From assembly GCA_014859225.1 (NCBI GenBank), contig JACUUP010000007.1, positions 1 to 30,866 of the forward strand: a stretch of DNA of 30,866 bases, read 5' to 3'. The DNA is from Candidatus Aerophobota bacterium (GTDB lineage: Bacteria; Aerophobota; Aerophobia; Aerophobales; B3-G15). A model generated the notes under the pieces. That model ran no database searches, was not told the DNA's origin, and saw only the letters and a program-made list of their open reading frames with translations. Below are positions 8,602 to 21,196 of the stretch, piece after piece (position 1 is the first letter of the stretch; the number at the start of each line of letters is the position of its first letter). A program made the translations under genes and the position numbers.

Positions 8602-9801
8602 TCACCCATTGAATCTGGATAGCTCTTTTCCTATAATCTTTGCTATCCTTCCTGCTGCACCGCACTCTCCCATCCTCTCTTTGCCAATTTTTGCTACTTT
8701 AGCCAGCTGCCGAGAATCATCAAGTAGCTCAATAACCTTATCGGCAACCGCCTTTGCCTCATTTCTGGTCATAAAAACAGCGCCTCCTAAAAGTTTTCTC
8801 TGAATACGCAAAAATTTTTTTGTAATCTGCGGCCCTTTTCCCGGAAAGGCTACCACAGGCTTGCCCAAACCAACTGCCTGTTCGCTGGCCATACCCGCAG
8901 TCCCTATAACTACCCTGGACAAATTAACTACATCGCCAAATCTTGCCTGAATTACTTTAACTAAAGTTCCCTGCGGGCAGATTAAATTGGCAACTATTCC
9001 TTTTTCTTGTTCGCTTGCGGTTGGATTTTTTAGAGTCCAGCCATCTTTTTCCCGTAAACTTACATTCACTATGCTTCTCACATCCAGTGAAGGAGCAAGT
9101 GCCAGAAGAAAAATCACTTTTCCTTTTTTTTGCAAAAAAATCTCTTCCGCCGCATCCAGGATAACCTTTAAGTTTTCACAGGCTTCTTTTTTGCTTCCCG
9201 GGACAATTCCCACCACAGGATATTTTTTTTCAATTCCGAAATCCTCATCCGTTATCTCAAGACAATCCATCATTACATTACCCGCGTAAACTGCATGTAT
9301 CCCGCAACTTCTAAGCGATAAAGCTGTCTTTTTGTCGCGTGCGAACACCAGTTTGCAATATCGCTTCATCAACCACTTTTCTATCCAGTAGTGCTCTTTT
9401 ATATAGTCTGATTTCGCCGTGGGGAAAAAAATAATGGGTTTTTTTATGAAAAGTGCTGAAGTTAAAACTAAAAAAATATCACCTATGCAAACTACAAAAT
9501 GTAACTTACTTCTCTTAACCTTTAATGCCTTTACTTTCTTCAGATAGAATCTCAACCAGCCTGCGCTTAAATCCTTTAAAAAGTAAAAAAGATTCCCATT
9601 GATAAACCCATCACTCGGCGTTCTCTTGCACGGTCCAAGCGTCTCTATGTCTAATTTTTTAAAAGCTAACCCCTCACCCACAAACGGAACTGCTGCAATT
9701 CTTAAAAAAGGATACTCTTCCAATAAGCTCTTAATGATACAGCAAGCAATATTATCCTCGGCATATCCATTGGATAAAAATAATATGTTTCGTGATTTCA
9801 T
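8602..9801 (-). CDS. LpxB-related glycosyltransferase-like protein (third LpxB homologue)
   Basis: This 399-residue protein resembles the lipid-A-disaccharide synthase-related family (TIGR03492 type, best known from cyanobacteria) rather than true LpxB. It begins with LFLSNGYAEDNIA (8-20), where LpxB has a GEASGD-like motif. A PGSKKEA loop at 201-207 corresponds to the LPGSR loop. The donor-binding region GTAGMASEQAVGLGKPVVAFPG spans 300-321. It lacks the PQxWAW stretch of LpxB. Its acceptor and donor are unknown; position at the end of the envelope cluster, 10 bases after the flippase gene, suggests a lipid-linked sugar or lipid A step. It converges with the methyltransferase gene across 25 bases. 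Confidence 0.75.
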   Translation of the reverse strand: MKSRNILFLSNGYAEDNIACCIIKSLLEEYPFLRIAAVPFVGEGLAFKKLDIETLGPCKRTPSDGFINGNLFYFLKDLSAGWLRFYLKKVKALKVKRSKLHFVVCIGDIFLVLTSALFIKKPIIFFPTAKSDYIKEHYWIEKWLMKRYCKLVFARDKKTALSLRSCGIHAVYAGNVMMDCLEITDEDFGIEKKYPVVGIVPGSKKEACENLKVILDAAEEIFLQKKGKVIFLLALAPSLDVRSIVNVSLREKDGWTLKNPTASEQEKGIVANLICPQGTLVKVIQARFGDVVNLSRVVIGTAGMASEQAVGLGKPVVAFPGKGPQITKKFLRIQRKLLGGAVFMTRNEAKAVADKVIELLDDSRQLAKVAKIGKERMGECGAAGRIAKIIGKELSRFNG

Positions 9802-10194: not shown

Positions 10195-10944
10195 TTAAAT
10201 GATTTTTTTCGTTTCCTTCAGTTTGTACCTGTGTAAAATAAAATTCCATCTTATCTGTAGAAGTTCCTTAAAAAAACTGGTGTATGCTTTTAATTTTACT
10301 TTACTTCCAGAAGAATCTATCCAGTAAACCGGTATAACACCAACTTTGTAGCCAAGTTTCCTGGCTAAAACCAAAACCTCCACATCAAATGCCCAGGAAT
10401 TGATTTTACATCTTTTGAATATATCTTCGGCAACACTCCTGGTTAAAGCCTTAAATCCACATTGAGTATCCCACACCCCCCATAGGGCGAAAAGCTGGAT
10501 ACCAATATTGCCCAGATTTCCTAAAAATCTTTTCCAGGATGGTTGAGCTACTACCTGACAGGCACCTTCAGCATCTTTTGCATCCCGAGAACCAATAACA
10601 ATATCAAATCCTCGCTCAAAAAGCGGCCACATTTTTTCTATATGGTCAATTGAAGTGGAATTATCAGCATCGGTAAATAACCTGTGCTCTCCCTTTGCCT
10701 GCAACATTCCCTGGCGAACAGCATAGCCCTTGCCATGGTTTTGCCTGTTGTCAATGAAGCGCAGATTTTTGATTTTTGGGAGCATCGCTTCCACCAGCTC
10801 GTTTGTTCTATCCGTTGAACCGTCGTTGACCACAATAATTTCTGATTCATAGGGCTGAGCCAAAATGTAGCTATTAATCTCAAGTAATGTCCGGCATAAT
10901 CTCTTTTCCTCGTTATAAGCTGGAATTATAATTGATAAATGCAT
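10195..10944 (-). CDS. GT2 glycosyltransferase, ALG5/polyprenyl-phosphate sugar synthase-like
   Basis: The 249-residue GT-A enzyme opens with LSIIIPAYNEEKRL and contains VVNDGSTDRT, the metal-binding DAD at 92-94 (FTDADNST) and DTQCGFK at 159-165. The last is typical of the dolichyl-phosphate beta-glucosyltransferase (ALG5) and DPMS-like branch of GT2. It lacks a C-terminal membrane domain. Such enzymes move a sugar from a nucleotide donor to a polyprenyl phosphate on the cytoplasmic face. It sits between the ArnT-like transferase (29 bases upstream) and the SMR-type flippase (17 bases downstream), forming a plausible synthase, flippase and transferase set. The sugar is not identifiable from sequence. 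Confidence 0.82.
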   Translation of the reverse strand: MHLSIIIPAYNEEKRLCRTLLEINSYILAQPYESEIIVVNDGSTDRTNELVEAMLPKIKNLRFIDNRQNHGKGYAVRQGMLQAKGEHRLFTDADNSTSIDHIEKMWPLFERGFDIVIGSRDAKDAEGACQVVAQPSWKRFLGNLGNIGIQLFALWGVWDTQCGFKALTRSVAEDIFKRCKINSWAFDVEVLVLARKLGYKVGVIPVYWIDSSGSKVKLKAYTSFFKELLQIRWNFILHRYKLKETKKII

Positions 10945-10973: not shown

Positions 10974-12644
10974 TTAATTTTGTTTGTTAGATAAAAGGAT
11001 TTTCCCACCTCTCTTGTTAAGGGTATAAAGAGAAATGCCTTCCAGTTCTTCCTTTATCCCATGATAATCCTCAATATCCATAACAGCGTAAACTCTTTCC
11101 CCGGAGCTAAAAAGCTCTTTAAGATTTTCTACATTGCTAACCCCCAGCACAGGATGCTCGCTGTAGTATACAAGAGAGCAGTTAAACGATATGTCGTGTC
11201 CAGGCGTAACAGGATAATCAACTATTTTTTCTCCAGGCTGAATCACAGATTTAATTTCATGGGCAAAAAATTTGGTGGGTTTAAAAACCTCGGTAAAAGG
11301 TAAAATGTGGACAAGCAGAATCCACAAAAAAATACACATCCCTGCGACAAGTGTTAAAAGAGAAAGAAAAATTTTCCTTTTAAAGATAATAAAAACAAAA
11401 GAAAAAACGCCCGCTCCCAAAAGCCCAAATATAGCTAAAAGAACTGCATTCCCAAATAAAGCGTATTCATCTGGAAACAAGGTTTTTCCGATAAACGTCA
11501 AAGCTGTCATTAAAGCCAGGACAATCACAAAGAAAAAGCCAAAGGATATATACAAACCTTTACTTTGGGCTGGAAGCTTTGATGTTGCAAACTTATCCCA
11601 GAGCCAGCCAACGCTTAAAGCGCAGGCAGGATAAAGCGGAAAAATGTAGCCCGGCAGTTTGCTTTGAGAAAGAGAAAAAAAGATGAAAATCAGCGCAATC
11701 CAGATTAAAAGAAAAAAATGTTTTTCCCGCTCTTTAGCAGTCTTATCTTTACTCCTTCTTAAAAAATGAAAAAAAGCAAGGGGCAAGAAACTGCTCCAGG
11801 GGAAAAAACCTAAAATTAAAACCGCAAAATAGTAGTAAACAGGACCTGTATGTCCTTCAAAAGGAGTTGCAAATCTTGTTACCATTCTCAAAAAAAACAA
11901 CTGCTCTACAAAAATCCACCCGTGGCGCAGAAATTCAATAATATACCAGGGAGCGGCAATGGCAAGAAAAATCAAAACCATCCAGGGAACTCTCATTGCT
12001 TTCAACCTGTGCAGGTTTCTGGTAAGTGTCAGGTAGATAAGAATAATGAAGCCGGGAAGCAAGAATCCTATTGGACCTTTGGTTAAAGTGGCAAAACCCA
12101 TAGAAGCGGCAGAGAGTATATAATAGTTTCTTCTATCTGGATTTGTATACCCCAGATAGAAAAAAAGAAAAGATAAGCTTATAAAAAAACTCAAGGGAAC
12201 ATCAACCAGAGCAAGGCGTGATTGAACTATAAATTGCAAGCTTGTAGCTAAAATCAAGGCAGAGAAAAATCCCACTCGTTTATTAAATAAAACCCTGCCT
12301 AAAAAGTAAACTAATACAACATGGGTCATCCCAAATAGCGAAGAGGTTATACGCGTGGTAAACTCATTCCAGCCGAAAAAACGATAAAAAAGCGCCGTAA
12401 ACCAAAAATAAAGCGGCGGTTTATCAAACCACTCCCGGTAATTAAAGCGAAGCGTAATCCAGTCGCCAAATCGTAGTATCCCTCTGGCTACATCGCCATA
12501 AATAGGCTCATCCGTTTCCCAGAGACTTGTATCACCCAGTTTGAAGACAAAAAGATACAAACAAATGACGAGCAGAAAAACAACCAAAAACCATTCCCGG
12601 GAGATAAAAAACTCATGTTTAAGTTTTTTATCTGAATTTTTCAT
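10974..12644 (-). CDS. ArnT/PMT-family GT-C membrane glycosyltransferase
   Basis: A 556-residue integral membrane protein with about a dozen hydrophobic helices and a C-terminal extracytoplasmic domain. The first loop has the GT-C features of ArnT: DEPIYGD at 45-51, GDWITLRFNYREWFDKPPLYFW at 60-81, then an amphipathic segment ending in TRITSSLFG. ArnT moves aminoarabinose from undecaprenyl phosphate to lipid A phosphates; relatives mannosylate proteins or modify other lipids. Given LpxB and MsbA-like genes nearby, lipid A or LPS core is the likely acceptor, but the sugar need not be aminoarabinose. The 66-base gap upstream has no convincing promoter or strong ribosome-binding site. Confidence 0.85.
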   Translation of the reverse strand: MKNSDKKLKHEFFISREWFLVVFLLVICLYLFVFKLGDTSLWETDEPIYGDVARGILRFGDWITLRFNYREWFDKPPLYFWFTALFYRFFGWNEFTTRITSSLFGMTHVVLVYFLGRVLFNKRVGFFSALILATSLQFIVQSRLALVDVPLSFFISLSFLFFYLGYTNPDRRNYYILSAASMGFATLTKGPIGFLLPGFIILIYLTLTRNLHRLKAMRVPWMVLIFLAIAAPWYIIEFLRHGWIFVEQLFFLRMVTRFATPFEGHTGPVYYYFAVLILGFFPWSSFLPLAFFHFLRRSKDKTAKEREKHFFLLIWIALIFIFFSLSQSKLPGYIFPLYPACALSVGWLWDKFATSKLPAQSKGLYISFGFFFVIVLALMTALTFIGKTLFPDEYALFGNAVLLAIFGLLGAGVFSFVFIIFKRKIFLSLLTLVAGMCIFLWILLVHILPFTEVFKPTKFFAHEIKSVIQPGEKIVDYPVTPGHDISFNCSLVYYSEHPVLGVSNVENLKELFSSGERVYAVMDIEDYHGIKEELEGISLYTLNKRGGKILLSNKQN

Positions 12645-12710: not shown

Positions 12711-13640
12711 TCAATTAAATTTTTCTTCTTTAATAGCCTCTCTGAGCCCTTCCATGTAACAGTGGCTGGTAAACATTTTTATCAATGCATTCTTCAGCAG
12801 AGGGAAATTGCGCTCTTTAAGCTGAAGTACTAAATTATTTCGCTTTTTCTCACTCATCCAGCCAAAAAAATTGAACATACGGTCAAGTGCAAAGAAAAAA
12901 AGGCTAATATGAGTCATAAGTTTTACCTCAAGTGTGGGGTGTTTGCGGTAAAAAATGACTGCTGTGCGTCCCCGCATTTTTTCTTTATGGCAAAGCGGCG
13001 GAAGATGGGCTAATGTAACTTTTTTCCTGTAATGATAACCAACAGCATTTTTATTAGTTACAACCCTTAAACCTTCTTTTTTTAACCTGACTCCCAACTC
13101 TAAATCTTCCCATCCGTACTCTTTAAAGTCCTCATCAAACAAACCCGCTTTTAGAAGATATTTTTTTCTTATGGATACATTCCCCGTGGCAAAAAAAGCA
13201 GCAGATACATCGGTTAATTTCATTTTTTCCCGGGCGAGGTTGTCCATTCTTTCGGTGTTAATTACCACCCCCTTCACAACTAATTTATCCTGGTTTTCAT
13301 GAGAACTCACATGTGCCTGCACAAAATCCTGTTCTACGAGAATATCGCTGTCAATAAATATGATAATTTCACCCTGTGCTTTCTTTACACCGTAATTTCT
13401 GGCAGAGGCAGGACCAGCTCTTTTTTTTTTGAAATACCTGAAATGTAAAGGACTGGATATAGATGTTAATATTTTATCGGTGCTATCGGTGGAGCCATCA
13501 TCAACTAAGATTACTTCATATCTTTGCGCCGGATAAGTCTGTTTTGCTAAACTTGCAATGATATTTCCAACAATTTTTGCCCGGTTGTAAGTGGGGATTA
13601 TAATACTGACATTTATACTATCTTTGTTTTTTTGTTCCAA
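12711..13640 (-). CDS. GT2 family glycosyltransferase
   Basis: This 309-residue GT-A enzyme has VSIIIPTYNRAK (11-22), VDDGSTDSTD (46-55), the metal-binding IDSDI with DSD at 97-99, and WEDLELG at 177-183 as in GT2 enzymes with a galactosyltransferase-like C-terminal region. It probably adds a sugar to the LPS core or O-antigen on the cytoplasmic face. The start is assigned to TTG at 13640, one base after the exporter's stop codon, with GAAGG inside the exporter's last codons as ribosome-binding site. Longer starts would overlap the exporter by about 100 bases and precede the conserved domain with unrelated residues. Donor and acceptor are unknown. Confidence 0.82.
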   Translation of the reverse strand: MEQKNKDSINVSIIIPTYNRAKIVGNIIASLAKQTYPAQRYEVILVDDGSTDSTDKILTSISSPLHFRYFKKKRAGPASARNYGVKKAQGEIIIFIDSDILVEQDFVQAHVSSHENQDKLVVKGVVINTERMDNLAREKMKLTDVSAAFFATGNVSIRKKYLLKAGLFDEDFKEYGWEDLELGVRLKKEGLRVVTNKNAVGYHYRKKVTLAHLPPLCHKEKMRGRTAVIFYRKHPTLEVKLMTHISLFFFALDRMFNFFGWMSEKKRNNLVLQLKERNFPLLKNALIKMFTSHCYMEGLREAIKEEKFN

Positions 13641-13641
13641 T

Positions 13642-15381
13642 TTAGCGCCCTTCAAACTGCATATTGTATAATCTGGCGTAAAGACCCCCCTGGTTGAGAA
13701 GTTCTTCGTGAGAGCCAATCTCCTTAACTTTTCCCCCATCAAGCACAACTATTCTGTTTGCCCCTTGAATGGTGGAAAGTCTGTGAGCAATTATAAAAGT
13801 CGTTTTATCTTTCATTAAAACATCAAGAGCCTCTCTTATTAAAATTTCGGACTGAGTATCAACAGCTGAGGTTGCCTCATCCAGAATAAGAATACGGGGG
13901 TCCATGAGAACAGCTCTTGCAATGGCAATGCGCTGTTTCTGTCCCACTGAAAGCTTGACTCCCCGCTCTCCTACCTGTGTATCGTAACCTTTATCCAGGG
14001 CTACAATAAAATTATGGGCATTAGCTCTTTTAGCTGCCTCTACGATTTCCTCATCTGTTGCCTCTATTTTGCTGTAGGCAATATTATCTCTTATGCTTCC
14101 GCTAAAAAGAACAGTTTCTTGAGGCACAATACCTATCTGTTTTCTCAAGCTGGAAAGTTTTACTTCCCTTATGGAATATCCATCTATACTGATAGAACCA
14201 GAGGTTGGGTCGTAAAAACGAGGAATAAGACTGACTAACGTGGTTTTTCCCACTCCAGATGGTCCCACTAAAGCTATTCTTTCCCCGGGGTTTACCTCCA
14301 GATTGATATTTTCCAGAATGATGCCATTTTCATCATAGGCAAAGCAAACATCTCTTAGCTGGATGTGCCCTTTTACCGGTGGAAGTTCTTTTGCCTTCAA
14401 AAGCTCCTTGACCTCGGGTTCGGTATCTAAAATCTCAAATACCCTCTCAGCGGAAGCAAGCGCCTGTTGATAAACACCAAAAACCCTGCTTACCTGACTC
14501 AAAGGATGAATGACCAGACCAATATATCCAAGAAAAGCTACAAGTTCCCCCATGGTTAATGCCCCTCTTATCACTTCTCTTCCTCCATACCAGAGTATAG
14601 AAATTAATCCAGCCAGGGATAAAATTTCAATCAAGGGAGTTAGCAGGGCAAGCATACGACTTCTTTTCAAGCTTAAAGTCAGGTTTTTTATATTCTCTTC
14701 CCTGAATCTTTCAATTTCTCTTTTCTCTGAGGTGAATGATTTTATCACCTCAACCCCTACAATTGTCTCCTGCAGGATAGAGGAAATATCAGCCATTTTT
14801 CCCTGGATGGAAGAGCTGGATTTTCTAATCAGTAGACTAAACTTACTTACGGTGAAAGATAAAACCGGAATGAGTATAAGAACGAAAAGGGAAAGTTGCC
14901 AGTGTATGTAAAAAATAAAGGCCAGAACTCCAATAAGGAGAAGAAAGTTACCGAAGAAATTGCTCATTTCGTTGATAAAAGCATTTTGAATGACATCAAC
15001 ATCATTTGTCAGACGAGACATAATCTCTCCTGTGCGTCTTTTTTTATAAAAACTCAAAGAAAGGCGCTGCAGGTGCTCATAAGCAGAGCTTCTCAGGTCA
15101 GCAGCCACACTGTAGGTAACCCGGGATATAAGATACATCTGGCCAAAAGATGCAAATCCTTTAATAACAAAAAGTACAAAAAGACCTATGGCAATAAGAT
15201 TTAAAAGAGAAAGGTCTTTTCCCTCCAGAATTACAGAATCGATAAGGTCTTTCCCCACCACCCAGGGAACAGCAAGCGTAACTAAAGTTGTAATCACTGT
15301 GCATACTATACCAAAAGCAAGATATCCCCAGTAGGCTCGAAAATACCTGAAAAGTCTATATGTAGTGCGCGTAGCACTCAT
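13642..15381 (-). CDS. MsbA-like ABC exporter, fused permease and ATPase
   Basis: A 579-residue half-transporter. Six membrane helices (about 15-310) are followed by an ATPase domain with Walker A GPSGVGKT at 373-380, Q-loop at 421, ABC signature LSVGQ at 477-481, Walker B ILILDE at 497-502 and the switch histidine His533 in IIAHRLST. It should act as a homodimer. In this envelope cluster a lipid A-core flippase role (MsbA type) is the most reasonable inference, though related exporters carry other lipids or drugs. The second glycine of the usual LSGGQ is valine, a tolerated but uncommon change. The start overlaps the upstream glycosyltransferase stop as ATGA. Confidence 0.85.
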   Translation of the reverse strand: MSATRTTYRLFRYFRAYWGYLAFGIVCTVITTLVTLAVPWVVGKDLIDSVILEGKDLSLLNLIAIGLFVLFVIKGFASFGQMYLISRVTYSVAADLRSSAYEHLQRLSLSFYKKRRTGEIMSRLTNDVDVIQNAFINEMSNFFGNFLLLIGVLAFIFYIHWQLSLFVLILIPVLSFTVSKFSLLIRKSSSSIQGKMADISSILQETIVGVEVIKSFTSEKREIERFREENIKNLTLSLKRSRMLALLTPLIEILSLAGLISILWYGGREVIRGALTMGELVAFLGYIGLVIHPLSQVSRVFGVYQQALASAERVFEILDTEPEVKELLKAKELPPVKGHIQLRDVCFAYDENGIILENINLEVNPGERIALVGPSGVGKTTLVSLIPRFYDPTSGSISIDGYSIREVKLSSLRKQIGIVPQETVLFSGSIRDNIAYSKIEATDEEIVEAAKRANAHNFIVALDKGYDTQVGERGVKLSVGQKQRIAIARAVLMDPRILILDEATSAVDTQSEILIREALDVLMKDKTTFIIAHRLSTIQGANRIVVLDGGKVKEIGSHEELLNQGGLYARLYNMQFEGR

Positions 15382-16427
15382 AAGTCATCTCTTTTTAAAA
15401 GTTGATTGTATAGTTTTTCGTATTTTTTAAATATCCTCTTCCATGAAAAATTACGGGCAAAATCTTGAATTTTCTCCACATCATCTTTTCCCCTCCTCAT
15501 CTCAATCTTTTCTTTAAGGTCTTTTCCATCTTCAAATACGAATACTCCAGGAGAAGAGCCCCACAGCCGAACAAGTCCAGGAAGCCATCCTGGGATAAAT
15601 ACAGCTGTGCCTGATGCAAGAGCCTCTAAAACTATCAGAGCGAAAGCTTCGTTGCGAGAGCACACAAGAAGATAGGAAAAAAGAGGATAGATATTTTCAA
15701 CTTTTTCCTGATAGCCTAAAAATTGAATCTGGTCATCCAATTCCAGCATTTTTACGTAATTCTCAAGTTTTTTGCGTAAAGGCCCCTCACCCACTATTAA
15801 AAATTTTGAGGCAAATTTAAACTTTGCCTGAGTTTTAATCGCCCACTTAATGTTTTTTTGCCTGACCAGCCTTCCAACTATTCCCACAACCTTGCTACAG
15901 GTATCTTTTGTGTTTGGTGAACTGAAAAATCTCTCATCCACCCCGTTGGGAATAAAAAATAAATTTTCCCTTTTGATTCCGGCTCTAATAAAATAATCTT
16001 TATCAAGAGGATTTAAAACAACGCAGACATCTATTTTTTTTAAAAACTTTGCCGCAAGCCAGTAATTAGAGTATGAAGGAAGTGCATTATCATAGCCGTG
16101 ACAGGTGAAAATAACTGGTTTTTCCGGAAGATATTTTTTCGCAAGATAGGCCATCTCCGCTGCTGCATGGACATGAATAATGTCTATCTTTTTGCCTGCA
16201 TCCAGAAGTGCCTTTTTCAATTCAGATACTGCAGTTAAGGGCCGACTTGCCATCCAGTTTTTTAGTTTGTAAACTTTAACACCTGGAGGAACTCTTTCCA
16301 AACTATCACCCGTTGGACTAATAAGAAAAACTTTACACCCACTTTTTAGACTCTGGAAAATTAAATTAATAATGCACCTTTCTGTGCCTCCAAGGTTCAT
16401 ATAAGGGGTAACATAAAGAATATGCAT
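15378..16427 (-). CDS. GT4 family glycosyltransferase
   Basis: A 349-residue GT-B enzyme. The N-terminal half contains the glycine-rich loop NLGGTERCI (11-20) typical of GT4 enzymes. The C-terminal half begins VVGIVGRLVRQKNIKWAI and carries the EX7E motif, Glu260 and Glu268, in RNEAFALIVLEAL, which binds the donor nucleotide sugar. A retaining transfer to LPS core or O-antigen is expected; the sugar is unknown. AGGAG a few bases upstream supports the ATG. It overlaps the MsbA-like gene by four bases, implying translational coupling, and lies 14 bases after the O-antigen ligase-like gene. Confidence 0.87.
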   Translation of the reverse strand: MHILYVTPYMNLGGTERCIINLIFQSLKSGCKVFLISPTGDSLERVPPGVKVYKLKNWMASRPLTAVSELKKALLDAGKKIDIIHVHAAAEMAYLAKKYLPEKPVIFTCHGYDNALPSYSNYWLAAKFLKKIDVCVVLNPLDKDYFIRAGIKRENLFFIPNGVDERFFSSPNTKDTCSKVVGIVGRLVRQKNIKWAIKTQAKFKFASKFLIVGEGPLRKKLENYVKMLELDDQIQFLGYQEKVENIYPLFSYLLVCSRNEAFALIVLEALASGTAVFIPGWLPGLVRLWGSSPGVFVFEDGKDLKEKIEMRRGKDDVEKIQDFARNFSWKRIFKKYEKLYNQLLKRDDL

Positions 16428-16441
16428 TTTTCTCCTGCATC

Positions 16442-17644
16442 TTATTTAAGAACTTTGCTGGATTTGTATACACATCCCAGTTTCTCAGCGTAAAAAATAA
16501 TCCCTGCAAGGAGTAAAAAAAATGGACCAATATGCAGGGAATATACCGTGCAGTCTACCTGGTTGTGAATCAATATTCCCACAAAAGAAGCAAAGGCAAC
16601 TATCCCTACTTTCCTTAAAAAAAGATTACTGCATTTTACAATATTAATTCCTTTTGTAAAAATCAAAACCACGATAGCCAAAAAAGATACCAGGGCTCCT
16701 ATTCCGGCCTCAGCCCATATTTGGAGAAATATATTGTGAGCAAAGGAGACATTAGGAATCTGGCTTTCTTTTAACCTGTAATCCGGGTAAGTTGAAGGAT
16801 AATTACCTATTCCCACTCCGGTAAGAGGTTGCTCTTTAATCATCTCCCAGGTTGCCTCCATAATATATATTCTTTCCTGGTTGGAGGGATAAGATAAATC
16901 TTGTATAGATTCTAACCGATAAAGCAAAGGTGGATAGGTAAAAAAGGTAATGATAATGATACTCATTAAAATTACTACCTTTAGTCGGTCCCGCTTGCAG
17001 TAAACAAAGTAAATGAAAAGCCCCCCTGCCAATCCTAACCAGGCACCACGGGAAAAGGATAAAATCAAGCCAGCAACTATGGTCGCAAGTGCAAATCCGA
17101 CCAACAGCTTCTTTTTGCTGGATGCTTGACTGAAACAGGCTAATGCTCCAAACGCTGCGGGAATCATAACCGTCCCCAAGCCATTCTCGCCTGTAAAAAG
17201 AGACCGTGCCCGCCCCCCAAAGCCTCCAAAATAAAAAATCATTCCACAGATACCTGATATAGTTGAACACACAATGAATATTTTTAGTAGTTTTTTGAAG
17301 AAGGCTTCCCTCAATATAATATAACGTGATTCCAGCATCACCAGGTAGAGCATCAAGCAAATAGAGACAAACGAACCCAGGAAAAATAGCTTATTGGGAG
17401 TACTAATTACCGAGAGCAGGCAAAAAATTATAAAAATGTTTACCAGAAAAAAAAGGGGGTCTTTTTTTATGCTTGCACGGCTCTTTTTCCCCAGAATTTT
17501 TCCCGCCAGAAAAAAAGGAAAGGCGGCAATACCTGAACCAAGTGGTGTCCCTGCAAACATCAAAACCCACCCGCTTTTCAATAAAAAGGAAGAAATCTTA
17601 CTCTTTTTATCAGTAAAATTTCGCCTTTCTATTTTTGCTTGCAA
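16442..17644 (-). CDS. O-antigen ligase/polymerase (Wzy_C, WaaL-like) membrane protein
   Basis: The 400-residue protein has about ten to twelve membrane helices and the O-antigen ligase/polymerase family signature. SFSRGAW is at 196-202; a large periplasmic loop follows with PLTGVGIGNYP at 273-283 and HNIFLQIWAEAG at 303-314. WaaL-type enzymes join undecaprenyl-linked O-antigen to lipid A-core in the periplasm; Wzy-type ones polymerise repeats. Sequence alone does not separate the two. The start is a TTG inside the last codons of the upstream LpxB-like gene (16-base overlap), with GGGGAAG five bases before it, suggesting translational coupling. Confidence 0.83.
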   Translation of the reverse strand: MQAKIERRNFTDKKSKISSFLLKSGWVLMFAGTPLGSGIAAFPFFLAGKILGKKSRASIKKDPLFFLVNIFIIFCLLSVISTPNKLFFLGSFVSICLMLYLVMLESRYIILREAFFKKLLKIFIVCSTISGICGMIFYFGGFGGRARSLFTGENGLGTVMIPAAFGALACFSQASSKKKLLVGFALATIVAGLILSFSRGAWLGLAGGLFIYFVYCKRDRLKVVILMSIIIITFFTYPPLLYRLESIQDLSYPSNQERIYIMEATWEMIKEQPLTGVGIGNYPSTYPDYRLKESQIPNVSFAHNIFLQIWAEAGIGALVSFLAIVVLIFTKGINIVKCSNLFLRKVGIVAFASFVGILIHNQVDCTVYSLHIGPFFLLLAGIIFYAEKLGCVYKSSKVLK

Positions 17645-18897
17645 TTTAACTTCCCCTTATCTAAAAGTTCAAAAATAACCTCAGCTACCCTATCCGCGGC
17701 TGAAACTTCTGCTTCCATCATTTTTTTAAGTTGAGAGGAAATTGAGAGAAGCCTGCTTTCATCCTGCAAAAGCGCAACTGCCTTATCTGCGACATCCTGA
17801 GGCTGAATGATTCCTTTCACTTCGGGTACTATTTCCTCTTGGGCAAAAATGTTAGGCTGAGCAACAAACCCCAGTTTTTTCCCATATATTTTCACTACCC
17901 CTCTTTTAATAATTTTTCCCAAAAAAGGCATCTTACCCGCCCAGCCAGCAAGTCCATCCATAGGAATTAACTCAGGCATGTTAAGCGGCAAGGCTACTAC
18001 CATGGGAACGCCCAAACAGGCAAGCTCTGCGGTATTAGTACCGGGTATAGTGAGCGCAAGAGTAGATAAAGCCAGGAGATGATATTTACCCTCATCAATC
18101 AAGGGGGCATTTAAGCCACCTTCTGTTACAATTTTCCAGATACTATCCTCCTTGACCAGTTCTGCTTGCGAAAGTTTACATACTCTGCGTACCTCGGCCT
18201 TGCTCAAGTCCAAAAAAAGTTCCGTTTTAACAAAAGAAGACAGGGCAAGGAAAAACTGAGCCTGGGGAAATTTTTTTTTAATCAACTCGCAGGCAGTTAG
18301 AAAAAATAAAGCCATATTAGCGGCAATCTCGGGCCTGCTACCGGGAAAAATTGATATAACTGGTTTTCCTGTAATAAGAGAATGCACATCAAAAGCTTTT
18401 TCTTCCTGCATCTGAGCCTTTACCGAATCAACTACTAAATTACCAACTACAACCGCTTTATCAGGACTTATCCCCTTTTCCAAAAAATTTTTGCGCTTAA
18501 CTTCATCGCTGACCAGCATAAATTTTTCAAAGCTTTTTTCCCACCTTGGCTTTTGCATGTATGCTACTGCAGGAATCTTTAGCCTCCTTGAAATGAGAAC
18601 CGCATTGAAAGGGTCGCCTCCTAAGAACACACATACGCCTTTTTTATTTTTCATCTGCCTGATAAACCAGGGCGTTTTTCTCAAAAAAATATACTTTACA
18701 AAATCACCCGGCCCAACCACATAATCAACCTCAGAAAAGCTTCTAACAACCTCCACTTCCCTGGCGCTTGCATACTGGCAGGGAGGAAGCATTAAAATAA
18801 TCCTTATATCCCTTCGCCTTTGTTTCAGGTTTTTCACAACCGGTTTTACCCATCCAATGAGCTCTCCCGGACTGTTTGCCATTATAATAATATACAT
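17629..18897 (-). CDS. divergent LpxB-like glycosyltransferase (second LpxB homologue)
   Basis: This 422-residue protein has the overall plan of LpxB-family (GT19-like, GT-B fold) enzymes but is clearly diverged. IIIMANSPGELIG (3-15) stands where LpxB has its N-terminal GEASGD-like motif. LGGDPF is at 92-97, FPGSR at 184-188, matching the LPGSR loop, and PGTNTAELACLGVP at 285-298 matches the donor-binding SGTATLE region. The PQxWAW motif is replaced by YMQKPRWEKSFEKF. The substrate is unknown. It starts two bases after the DUF362 gene and overlaps the O-antigen ligase-like gene, so all are likely translated together. It could use a different lipid acceptor from the authentic LpxB. Confidence 0.75.
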   Translation of the reverse strand: MYIIIMANSPGELIGWVKPVVKNLKQRRRDIRIILMLPPCQYASAREVEVVRSFSEVDYVVGPGDFVKYIFLRKTPWFIRQMKNKKGVCVFLGGDPFNAVLISRRLKIPAVAYMQKPRWEKSFEKFMLVSDEVKRKNFLEKGISPDKAVVVGNLVVDSVKAQMQEEKAFDVHSLITGKPVISIFPGSRPEIAANMALFFLTACELIKKKFPQAQFFLALSSFVKTELFLDLSKAEVRRVCKLSQAELVKEDSIWKIVTEGGLNAPLIDEGKYHLLALSTLALTIPGTNTAELACLGVPMVVALPLNMPELIPMDGLAGWAGKMPFLGKIIKRGVVKIYGKKLGFVAQPNIFAQEEIVPEVKGIIQPQDVADKAVALLQDESRLLSISSQLKKMMEAEVSAADRVAEVIFELLDKGKLNCKQK

Positions 18898-18899
18898 TG

Positions 18900-20057
18900 T
18901 TACATCTTCAGTTTTTTTGCCAGCCAGTTATATTTAATTATTATAGCTTTCTCAGGACAAAACTCCTGGCAGCAAAAACATTTAATGCATTTTTTTCTTT
19001 GAATTTTAGGAATACTGCTGGCAAACTTAATTGCTTTTGTGGGACAATGCTTAACACATACTCCACAAGCTACACAGTTTTCCCGGTTTACCTGTGGCTC
19101 TACCTTCAAAAATAAGGGAGCAGCAACTCTTGCCAGAAAAAGGATAAAAGAGGGCACCCGCTTCAAGAATGTATTCAAATTGTTAATTAATTGAAAATCC
19201 TCAAGTTTGACCTCCTCAAGTTTTTCACCCCGGATGTCCAGCTTCTCAATTCTTGCTTCTCCAAATCCCCTTTCATAGGCAACTCTTGTTATTTCTACAT
19301 CTAATGGATTGTAGCCGATAATGTATGAGGCAACCGCATCTACTGCCACCATATCTTTGCTCGCCATAACCAACCCTATCCTGCGAGGAGAACCTGCTGC
19401 TGGTCCAAATCCTTCCATTCCTACAATCGCATCCATAACCGCAAGTTTTGGCTTCACTGCTGCCAGAATGTCCACTACAAGTTCGGCAAAAGCCTCAGGT
19501 TTTGGCGCAAGTGCATGAAGCTCTTTTTTTCTAAATCCCGGTATAGTTCCATAAAGATTTTTAATGGCACCGGTGAACAGGGTAAAACTGTGGGTTTTTA
19601 ATTTAGGCAGGGATATCACTGCATCGGCATCCATCACATCTTTTGCGATATGAAGCACTGGCACTCTTTTGTTCACAGAGGTTTTAATCTCCTTCACCTG
19701 TTTGAAATTAACAATTTCCACTCCTTCTTCTTCCGCAGCTTTTTTAAGACCAGTTGCCTGCCAAGCTTCTCGTGCATCTTCATAAGTATAAGCGATACCG
19801 GGTGCATCTCCTAAAAATGGTATCCCACCTGCTTTCTTGACCAGCCTTATTACAGCTTTTGCAATAGCAGGGTGCGTGGTTACCGCTTTTTCAGGTACAT
19901 CTGCATTTAACACATTTACCTTGAGTATCACCTTATCCCCCGGATTTACAATACCTCTCATCCCCCCTGCAAGCTCAACACTTTCTCTTACTGCCCTGTC
20001 TACTTCATCTTGTTCATAATTATCACATTTCACTATAGAAACTTTGCTCATACTCAC
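18900..20057 (-). CDS. DUF362 domain protein with two 4Fe-4S ferredoxin motifs
   Basis: Residues 1 to about 300 form a DUF362 domain, including SLPKLKTHSFTLFTGAIKNLYG (149-170) typical of the family. A hydrophobic stretch at about 302-318 follows. The C-terminus holds two CxxCxxCxxxCP motifs: Cys328, 331, 334, 338 and Cys357, 360, 363, 367, with an extra Cys362. It should bind two 4Fe-4S clusters and carry electrons; no substrate is established for the family. GTG at 20057 forms a GTGA overlap with the lpxB stop; ATG at 20051 with AAGG five bases upstream is equally plausible. Its position, tightly coupled between lpxB and an lpxB-like gene, is the odd point: iron-sulfur proteins are not part of known lipid A assembly. 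Confidence 0.85.
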   Translation of the reverse strand: MSMSKVSIVKCDNYEQDEVDRAVRESVELAGGMRGIVNPGDKVILKVNVLNADVPEKAVTTHPAIAKAVIRLVKKAGGIPFLGDAPGIAYTYEDAREAWQATGLKKAAEEEGVEIVNFKQVKEIKTSVNKRVPVLHIAKDVMDADAVISLPKLKTHSFTLFTGAIKNLYGTIPGFRKKELHALAPKPEAFAELVVDILAAVKPKLAVMDAIVGMEGFGPAAGSPRRIGLVMASKDMVAVDAVASYIIGYNPLDVEITRVAYERGFGEARIEKLDIRGEKLEEVKLEDFQLINNLNTFLKRVPSFILFLARVAAPLFLKVEPQVNRENCVACGVCVKHCPTKAIKFASSIPKIQRKKCIKCFCCQEFCPEKAIIIKYNWLAKKLKM

Positions 20058-21196
20058 CTTTTCCTTTTCGTGGCTACATCTACTACAACTTTTGCCGCGC
20101 GTTCAGTAGCCCCGACTGGACCTAACTTTGCCACGACATCTTTTAGCTCACGTTTCATTGCATCTAACTTTTCCGGACTCTCAAGAAGCTCAAGCATAGC
20201 TTTTAGGAGGTAGCGCTCTTTCGCTTTGAACTGCAATAGCTCGGGAACTATTTTTTTTTCTGCAATAATGTTTGGAAGGCTAACGTAGGGAAATTTTATT
20301 AAAATCCACGCCAGTATATACGTGGTGATGTGCGCTTTGTACATCACAATCATAGGTGCATCAAGACAAGCTGCCTCAAGTGCAGCTGTGCCCGAAGCAG
20401 TTACGACTAACGTGGATATATTCATAAAATCATAGATATTACCATCCGCCACCCTAACCTCAATGCCACTTTTGCTAACAAGCTGCATAATTTTTTCTTT
20501 GAAAACGGAAGCGGCAACCGGGATAGCATACTGAACATCTTTTATCCTTTTATTTAAGTTTTTGGCTGCCTGTAGCATCACCGGCAGCAGGTTTTTTATC
20601 TCATACTCCCTACTTCCAGGCAAAAGAGAAATTAGAGGTTTTTCCGGATTAAGGGAAAATTTTTTAAAAACTTCTTCTTTTTCCATTGTGGGTCTGGCTA
20701 TATCAAGCAAGGGATGTCCCGTCCACAAAACATCTGCTCCCATTTTTTTGTAAAGTTTTTCCTCAAAGGGGAAAATAGCAATAATCTTATCAATTCTTCT
20801 GGATGCTCTCCTCATTTTCAAATCAAACCATGCCCATAACTGAGGGGCAAAATAGTATACAACTGGTATCTTTAATTTCTTTGCCGGTTTAACCAGGTTG
20901 AGATTAAAGTCTCTGGAATCTATTAAAATTAATACATCGGGTCTTTCTTCTTTGAGTAATTTTTCCATTCTTAGCTTTATTTTTAAGAAGGAAGGGTAAT
21001 ATTTAAAACCTTCCACCACTCCCATCGTTCCCATATGAGTAGTAAAAGCCTTCACATCTACCCCGGCAGCCCTCATTTGCTCCCCTCCGGCACCTATAAA
21101 TTCAGCTTCAGGATAAATTTTTTTTATCGCTTTCACTAAGTGAGCAGCATGCATATCACCCGATACCTCTGTGGCGGATAACATAATTTTTAACAA
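20054..21196 (-). CDS. lpxB: lipid-A-disaccharide synthase
   Basis: LpxB condenses lipid X with UDP-2,3-diacylglucosamine to give the tetraacyl disaccharide of lipid A at the inner face of the cytoplasmic membrane. The 380-residue protein keeps the family hallmarks in order: ATEVSGD at 8-14 (usually GEASGD), IDSRDFN at 92-98 with the catalytic-type Asp96, YYFAPQLWAW at 114-123, LLPGSR at 191-196, a TASGTAALE donor loop, and VSLPNIIAEKKIVPELLQ. The start is TTG at 21196 with AGGAG seven bases upstream. It follows a 101-base gap with a nested palindrome and begins the envelope block. No other lpx genes are in the window. Confidence 0.93.
   Translation of the reverse strand: MLKIMLSATEVSGDMHAAHLVKAIKKIYPEAEFIGAGGEQMRAAGVDVKAFTTHMGTMGVVEGFKYYPSFLKIKLRMEKLLKEERPDVLILIDSRDFNLNLVKPAKKLKIPVVYYFAPQLWAWFDLKMRRASRRIDKIIAIFPFEEKLYKKMGADVLWTGHPLLDIARPTMEKEEVFKKFSLNPEKPLISLLPGSREYEIKNLLPVMLQAAKNLNKRIKDVQYAIPVAASVFKEKIMQLVSKSGIEVRVADGNIYDFMNISTLVVTASGTAALEAACLDAPMIVMYKAHITTYILAWILIKFPYVSLPNIIAEKKIVPELLQFKAKERYLLKAMLELLESPEKLDAMKRELKDVVAKLGPVGATERAAKVVVDVATKRKR

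Follow-up and report, generated by a model that had tools for sequence, protein, structure and literature searches.

A DUF362 iron-sulfur protein with a predicted LarA-like fold, encoded between lpxB and an lpxB-like gene in Aerophobota

Introduction

In the nickel enzyme LarA, His108 and His174 act as acid/base catalysts, a lysine bears the nickel-pincer nucleotide (NPN) cofactor by a thioamide, and a histidine ligates nickel (PMC12611868); the NPN lysine is numbered 184 (PMC11796402). About 15% of genomes encode larB, larE and larC without larA; the client protein in these genomes is described as "yet to be identified", and the same authors expect its fold to be distinct from that of LarA (PMC11796402). 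Oxidation of a sugar carbon during lipid A synthesis also has precedents: GnnA uses NAD to oxidise UDP-GlcNAc at the 3-OH, after which GnnB transaminates the product (PMC5644692, PMC8036547), and 2-aminogluconate is found in the lipid A of rhizobia (PMC5644692). Here we describe a locus that may touch on both subjects. It lies in a stretch of 30,866 nucleotides from Candidatus Aerophobota bacterium (GenBank assembly GCA_014859225.1, contig JACUUP010000007.1; contig C223 in our set), hereafter the window, whose genome is 1.8 Mb in size and 91% complete. In the window, a gene for a DUF362 protein sits between lpxB and a divergent lpxB-like gene, which we call lpxB2. An initial annotation of the window, made from the sequence alone, suggested that these genes share a job, and it described lipid A assembly as having no known redox step; GnnA shows that statement to be wrong. 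GnnA is, however, an NAD-dependent oxidoreductase of another family that acts on UDP-GlcNAc before LpxA.

Predicted fold and conserved residues of the DUF362 protein

The DUF362 gene and its closest neighbours have the following layout:

20054..21196, minus strand: lpxB, canonical lipid-A-disaccharide synthase, heading the coupled group (Pfam LpxB 3.4e-93, 313 bits)
18900..20057, minus strand: DUF362 protein with a LarA-like N-terminal domain, a hydrophobic linker and a 2[4Fe-4S] ferredoxin domain (Pfam DUF362 2e-60; Fer4)
19515..19592, minus strand: H156-K166-H181 stretch of the DUF362 protein, HSFTLFTGAIKNLYGTIPGFRKKELH, putative counterpart of LarA H174/K184/H200
18957..19076, minus strand: the two 4Fe-4S motifs of the DUF362 protein (C328-C338 and C357-C367)
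17629..18897, minus strand: lpxB2, divergent LpxB-family GT-B glycosyltransferase (Pfam LpxB 1.1e-13)
16442..17644, minus strand: waaL-like O-antigen ligase (Pfam Wzy_C 2.3e-26)

The positions and tight packing of lpxB, the DUF362 gene, lpxB2 and the ligase-like gene were correct in the initial annotation, as were the start of lpxB2 two bases past the DUF362 stop and, provided that the TTG start of the waaL-like gene is correct, the 16-base overlap between lpxB2 and that gene. The four-base overlap that it gave for lpxB and the DUF362 gene (GTGA) holds with the GTG start at 20057. Homologues begin at an ATG two codons downstream (20051), so the true start is probably this ATG, and the junction a two-base gap with no overlap. 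lpxB itself has a TTG start and scores 291 bits against TIGR00215 (cut-off 190).

The DUF362 protein matches Pfam DUF362 (PF04015) with 204.7 bits against a cut-off of 24. In its AlphaFold model (pLDDT 89), the N-terminal domain resembles lactate/malate racemases with Z-scores of 18-19 over ~216 residues, far above unrelated structures; for LarA 7s91 the values are Z 19.0 and rmsd 2.9 over 216 residues. DUF362 and LarA also belong to the same Pfam clan, CL0471 (PMC11770544). The likeness lies mainly along the N-terminal domain: LarA continues with a C-terminal substrate domain, whereas the C-terminal part of the DUF362 protein is a ferredoxin domain that superimposes on the clostridial 2[4Fe-4S] ferredoxin 1fca with an rmsd of 1.2. 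Both 4Fe-4S motifs are intact, as initially annotated (CxxCxxCxxxCP at C328/331/334/338 and C357/360/363/367), and their cysteines are kept throughout the family, C328 being missing in a few distant members. The hydrophobic stretch noted before the clusters is likewise present, as a linker at ~296-318. We considered this linker as a common mark of lpx-linked DUF362 proteins and rejected it; its hydrophobicity is marked in Aerophobota and not so in the copies of Desantisbacteria and of genome G370, from another small phylum. The nearest named NCBIfam family, NF052623 (Npun_F2552), aligns with residues 5-296 at 204 bits, below its cut-off of 500, and differs in that the Aerophobota protein adds the 2[4Fe-4S] domain and the linker and is coupled to lpxB. 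Beyond the ferredoxin part, the sequence of the DUF362 protein matched no solved structure, and the literature searched gave no function for DUF362.

Three residues, H156, K166 and H181, are invariant among 32 diverse DUF362 proteins. LarA proteins in the surveyed genomes have the pattern H-x9-K-x15-H, and the H-x9-K spacing is the same in DUF362, again with a histidine following. An hhalign comparison of LarA with DUF362, blind to this pattern, sets all three residues in register (E 0.0033). We read H156, K166 and H181 as likely counterparts of the acid/base H174, the NPN anchor K184 and the nickel ligand of LarA, which we take to be numbered His200 in the Lactobacillus plantarum enzyme. In a Pfam search at E 0.001, Lar_N (PF09861) was not listed for the window protein; it scores above its cut-off, over the same region, on four DUF362 paralogues (G000:C237, G010:C13, G006:C34 and G007:C62).

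Co-occurrence of DUF362 with NPN genes

The window genome encodes larB and larC together (L218) and larE (L219). We compared the distribution of larC with that of DUF362 proteins across 386 genomes; the counts are uncorrected for phylogeny or lifestyle. Both genes occur in 157 genomes, larC only in 41, DUF362 only in 56 and neither in 132 (odds ratio 9.0); for larC and LarA, the odds ratio in the same genomes is 5.7. The association persists where LarA is missing, with counts in the same order of 63/25/31/123 (odds ratio 10.0, p 2.6e-15), and also when one LarA-negative genome is taken per family (20/9/12/52; odds ratio 9.6, p 4e-6). Our control organisms include Synechococcus elongatus, in which larC, larE and DUF362 occur and LarA does not. 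Three other controls (M. jannaschii, H. volcanii and C. glutamicum) encode larC but neither LarA nor, at the threshold applied, DUF362, so that DUF362 is not the sole answer to the question of larC-linked clients. A separate observation concerns genome G247, in which larC and the gene of a close DUF362 relative overlap by 4 bases and a LolA-like gene comes next (L167:9180-11026); larE is present in this genome and LarA was not found there.

We found no literature linking DUF362 to the orphan NPN cofactor. A DUF362 client would depart from the expectation of a distinct fold, in that DUF362 shares the N-terminal fold of LarA even though the window protein is not scored as Lar_N. We regard DUF362 as a candidate user of NPN where LarA is missing, and in our view the LarA cofactor site, together with the tracking of larC without LarA, is the new and more interesting part of these results. 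Because DUF362 combines the fold of LarA with its cofactor residues, and follows larC where LarA is missing, the orphan-NPN question is now directly testable.

Proposed role in lipid A assembly

We tentatively propose, while giving this proposal somewhat less than even weight, that the DUF362 protein serves lipid A/lipopolysaccharide (LPS) synthesis as an accessory enzyme, in which a LarA-like domain with an NPN-type cofactor and a 2[4Fe-4S] relay transfer a hydride on a precursor. Lys166 would most likely hold NPN, or a nicotinate-derived cofactor much like it; the metal would be ligated by His181, and His156 would act as acid/base. A hydride would be taken from (or given to) a C-OH carbon of a lipid A precursor that LpxB has made and that is bound to the membrane. 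LarA returns its hydride, giving a racemate, whereas a site that has a single clear catalytic histidine and adjoins clusters could export or import electrons; the 4Fe-4S clusters would thereby carry electrons on or off, for a net oxidation or reduction, or for an assisted epimerisation. The step would precede those of lpxB2, WaaL and MsbA and would take place at the inner membrane surface, on which the hydrophobic linker of the Aerophobota copies could lean. The redox modification that the initial annotation suggested is plausible, and the LarA-like domain with its two clusters gives it a concrete architecture; cofactor, substrate and reaction are inferred. This suggests an unknown chemical step in the making of outer-membrane lipid A in Aerophobota. 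If the proposal is correct, organometallic nickel chemistry would extend to the synthesis of outer-membrane lipids, and an anaerobic, cluster-linked step would be added to lipid A assembly.

Several results weigh against the NPN part of this proposal. The hhalign probability is only 10% despite the E-value, and at the position of LarA His108 the alignment places a GDAPG stretch with no clear histidine, the invariant H62 of DUF362 lying elsewhere in the sequence. The window genome also encodes true LarA proteins, which explain its NPN genes. Among ferredoxin-bearing DUF362 relatives alone, larC is less strongly linked where LarA is missing (odds ratio 3.0, p 0.002). We rejected a strict dependence of DUF362 on larC, since 56 of the 213 genomes with DUF362 are without larC; in one genome, G299, the H-K-H residues are retained and neither larC nor LarA was found. 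It is conceivable, if rather unlikely, that lipid A assembly employs the protein as an iron-sulfur oxidoreductase of LarA fold that works without NPN. Catalysis would then fall to the clusters together with another bound cofactor, and Lys166, His181 and His156 would serve that cofactor or the substrate. The invariant residues of G299 and the weaker larC link of the ferredoxin-bearing subfamily would fit such an enzyme, as would genome G003, which has the trio and in which larC and larE were not found. The lar genes of G003 are probably missing through an assembly gap, however, because this genome has three LarA proteins, and both the identity of the motif spacing to that of the NPN-binding motif and the strong family-wide larC association speak for NPN.

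Linkage of DUF362 to lpx genes

The proposed assignment of the DUF362 protein to lipid A assembly comes from where its gene is found, a genomic setting that itself sets it apart from LarA. We compared the window genome with 16 other Aerophobota genomes, and DUF362 occupies the lpx slot in nine of the 17. It adjoins lpxB2 in eight of the 16 others (G001, G003, G006, G010, G011, G014, G015 and G016), which span four families (f1, f2, f5 and f6), and lpxB flanks it on the opposite side in all of these except G016, whose contig stops short of lpxB. This recurrence exceeds chance, and identity to the window genes in these genomes is higher for DUF362 (58-68%) than for lpxB (48-57%, 63-66% in the nearest) and lpxB2 (40-54%). 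waaL comes directly next in five of eight genomes with DUF362 and in none of five without it, a difference that is suggestive only (p 0.075).

The ordered trio lpxB-DUF362-lpxB2 was seen in Aerophobota only. When the 386 genomes were searched with a profile of the trio's DUF362 proteins, however, the best match outside the phylum is a Desantisbacteria protein whose gene adjoins lpxB2, and the third-best, in G370, closes an operon bamA-skp-lpxD-lpxC/fabZ-lpxA-lpxB-DUF362 (bamA and skp assigned by eye), where it overlaps lpxB by 4 bases. Both contacts fall among the three nearest DUF362 relatives. With four gene-side contacts, ~2,200 genes and ~73 genomes, chance predicts ~0.1 contacts with lpxB or lpxB2 against the two observed, contacts with lpxB2 having been inspected for the top matches only. 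In a maximum-likelihood tree, the eleven lpx-linked DUF362 proteins need two label changes, and none of 500 shuffles was as clustered. Adjacency to lpx genes is neither confined to close relatives of this organism nor randomly scattered through the tree, the two patterns that the initial annotation had named as refuting it. A single strict clade of lpx-linked proteins is neither shown nor rejected (p-AU 0.16), and two sequences from other settings (G061 and G336) fall inside the lpx-linked group. These two genes lie between the quinolinate synthase gene nadA and a nagB-like/PIG-L pair (L159 and L160); beside this nadA neighbourhood, we note that NPN is nicotinate-derived.

The linkage has limits that count against the proposed role. 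lpxB directly abuts lpxB2, without DUF362, in four Aerophobota genomes (G004, G007, G009 and G013), and no DUF362 orthologue was found elsewhere in any of the four; G009 is of the same genus as G010, which has the gene. Because several Aerophobota have lpxB directly joined to lpxB2, the DUF362 gene forms an accessory cassette between two long-established neighbours, and it is dispensable rather than essential to the lipid A pathway. Outside Aerophobota, ~73 genomes carry such a DUF362 protein, and its gene lies 5 kb or less from lpxB in G370 alone. lpxB lies beside lpxB2 in 26 of 67 named non-Aerophobota loci by our count (Bacillota, Armatimonadota and others), with DUF362 in just one of the 67, that of Desantisbacteria, and we rejected the ordered trio as a widespread unit.

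Such a pattern might also arise, though we doubt it, if DUF362 were a passenger in a long housekeeping operon that runs from aro genes and panC through lpxB to msbA, unrelated to lipid A and closely spaced through streamlining. The run from aroE to the TIGR03492 gene is indeed compact and includes unrelated aro and panC genes, the cassette has been cleanly lost in some genomes, and other close DUF362 genes adjoin dprA, hisS, alanyl-tRNA-synthetase-like or dnaJ genes. Chance neighbourhood, however, poorly explains why, in two other phyla and in operons different from this one, the closest DUF362 relatives touch lpx genes. Conserved packing, two independent lpx links and clustering in the tree support a shared job with lipid A assembly; linkage to lpx genes is limited and multi-phylum, and DUF362 is a real, conserved, accessory gene of lipid A operons. 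Its operon membership and the LarA-like fold are both well supported. The protein might instead sense redox state or relay electrons for the LPS machinery without acting on the lipid. That role would account for the 2[4Fe-4S] domain and for the hydrophobic linker in Aerophobota copies and is improbable, given that the invariant catalytic-type residues of the LarA-like domain point to catalysis and that the operon holds no other obvious electron partner.

lpxB2 and neighbouring genes

lpxB2 is most aptly described as a second member of the LpxB glycosyltransferase family in outer-membrane lipid assembly. It is homologous to LpxB (GT19) over the full length (hhalign 1.1e-41, probability 100; 1.3e-15 against the LpxB structure 5w8n in the PDB) and scores 47.5 bits against TIGR00215, under the equivalog cut-off of 190. 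The GSR, PN and PE motifs are retained, and the N-terminal motif is NSPGE where LpxB has an ATEVSGD-type motif. We did not adopt an epimerase reading of lpxB2: for its model, Foldseek puts UDP-GlcNAc 2-epimerases slightly over LpxB, and sequence profiles favour LpxB. lpxB2 supplements the canonical lpxB rather than replacing it. The gene is tied to the lipid A pathway because of an operon in genome G031 with the order lpxD-lpxC-fabZ-DegT-lpxA-lpxB-lpxB2. The DegT-type aminotransferase gene between fabZ and lpxA in this operon (L047:7220-8359) is an observation of its own, suggesting a GnnB-like route to 2,3-diamino-sugar lipid A. No relatives of lpxB2 were found in viral contigs.

The complete minus-strand order in the window is aroE-aroC-aroKB-aroQ-pheA-aroF-aroA-TPR-panC-lpxB-DUF362-lpxB2-waaL-GT4-msbA-GT2-PMT-GT2-TIGR03492, and the genes that follow waaL are:

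15378..16427, minus strand: GT4 glycosyltransferase (Pfam)
13642..15381, minus strand: msbA-like lipid A flippase ABC transporter (TIGR02204 554 bits and TIGR02203 MsbA 527 bits, neither reaching its cut-off)
12711..13748, minus strand: GT2 glycosyltransferase (Pfam)
10974..12644, minus strand: PMT-family sugar transferase (Pfam PMT_2 7e-25)
10195..10944, minus strand: GT2 glycosyltransferase (Pfam)
8602..9801, minus strand: TIGR03492 lipid-A-disaccharide synthase-related protein, third LpxB-family member in the cluster (314 bits, cut-off 219)

lpxB, lpxB2, msbA and the TIGR03492 gene travel together in Bacillota metagenome-assembled genomes (MAGs), in Armatimonadota and in others, and we found no description of this conserved set; the TIGR03492 gene recurs close to lpxB2 and msbA across many phyla. 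In G010, contig C40 carries a second lpxB2 directly followed by msbA (L050:2-715), with the trio on another contig, which reflects either a strain mixture or a real duplication. Lastly, two public MAGs labelled Clostridia bacterium (CSMAG_2518 and CSMAG_2055; loci L063 and L064) carry the Aerophobota operon, and contigs of G010 and G009, from the same order, match them; their Clostridia names are probably wrong.

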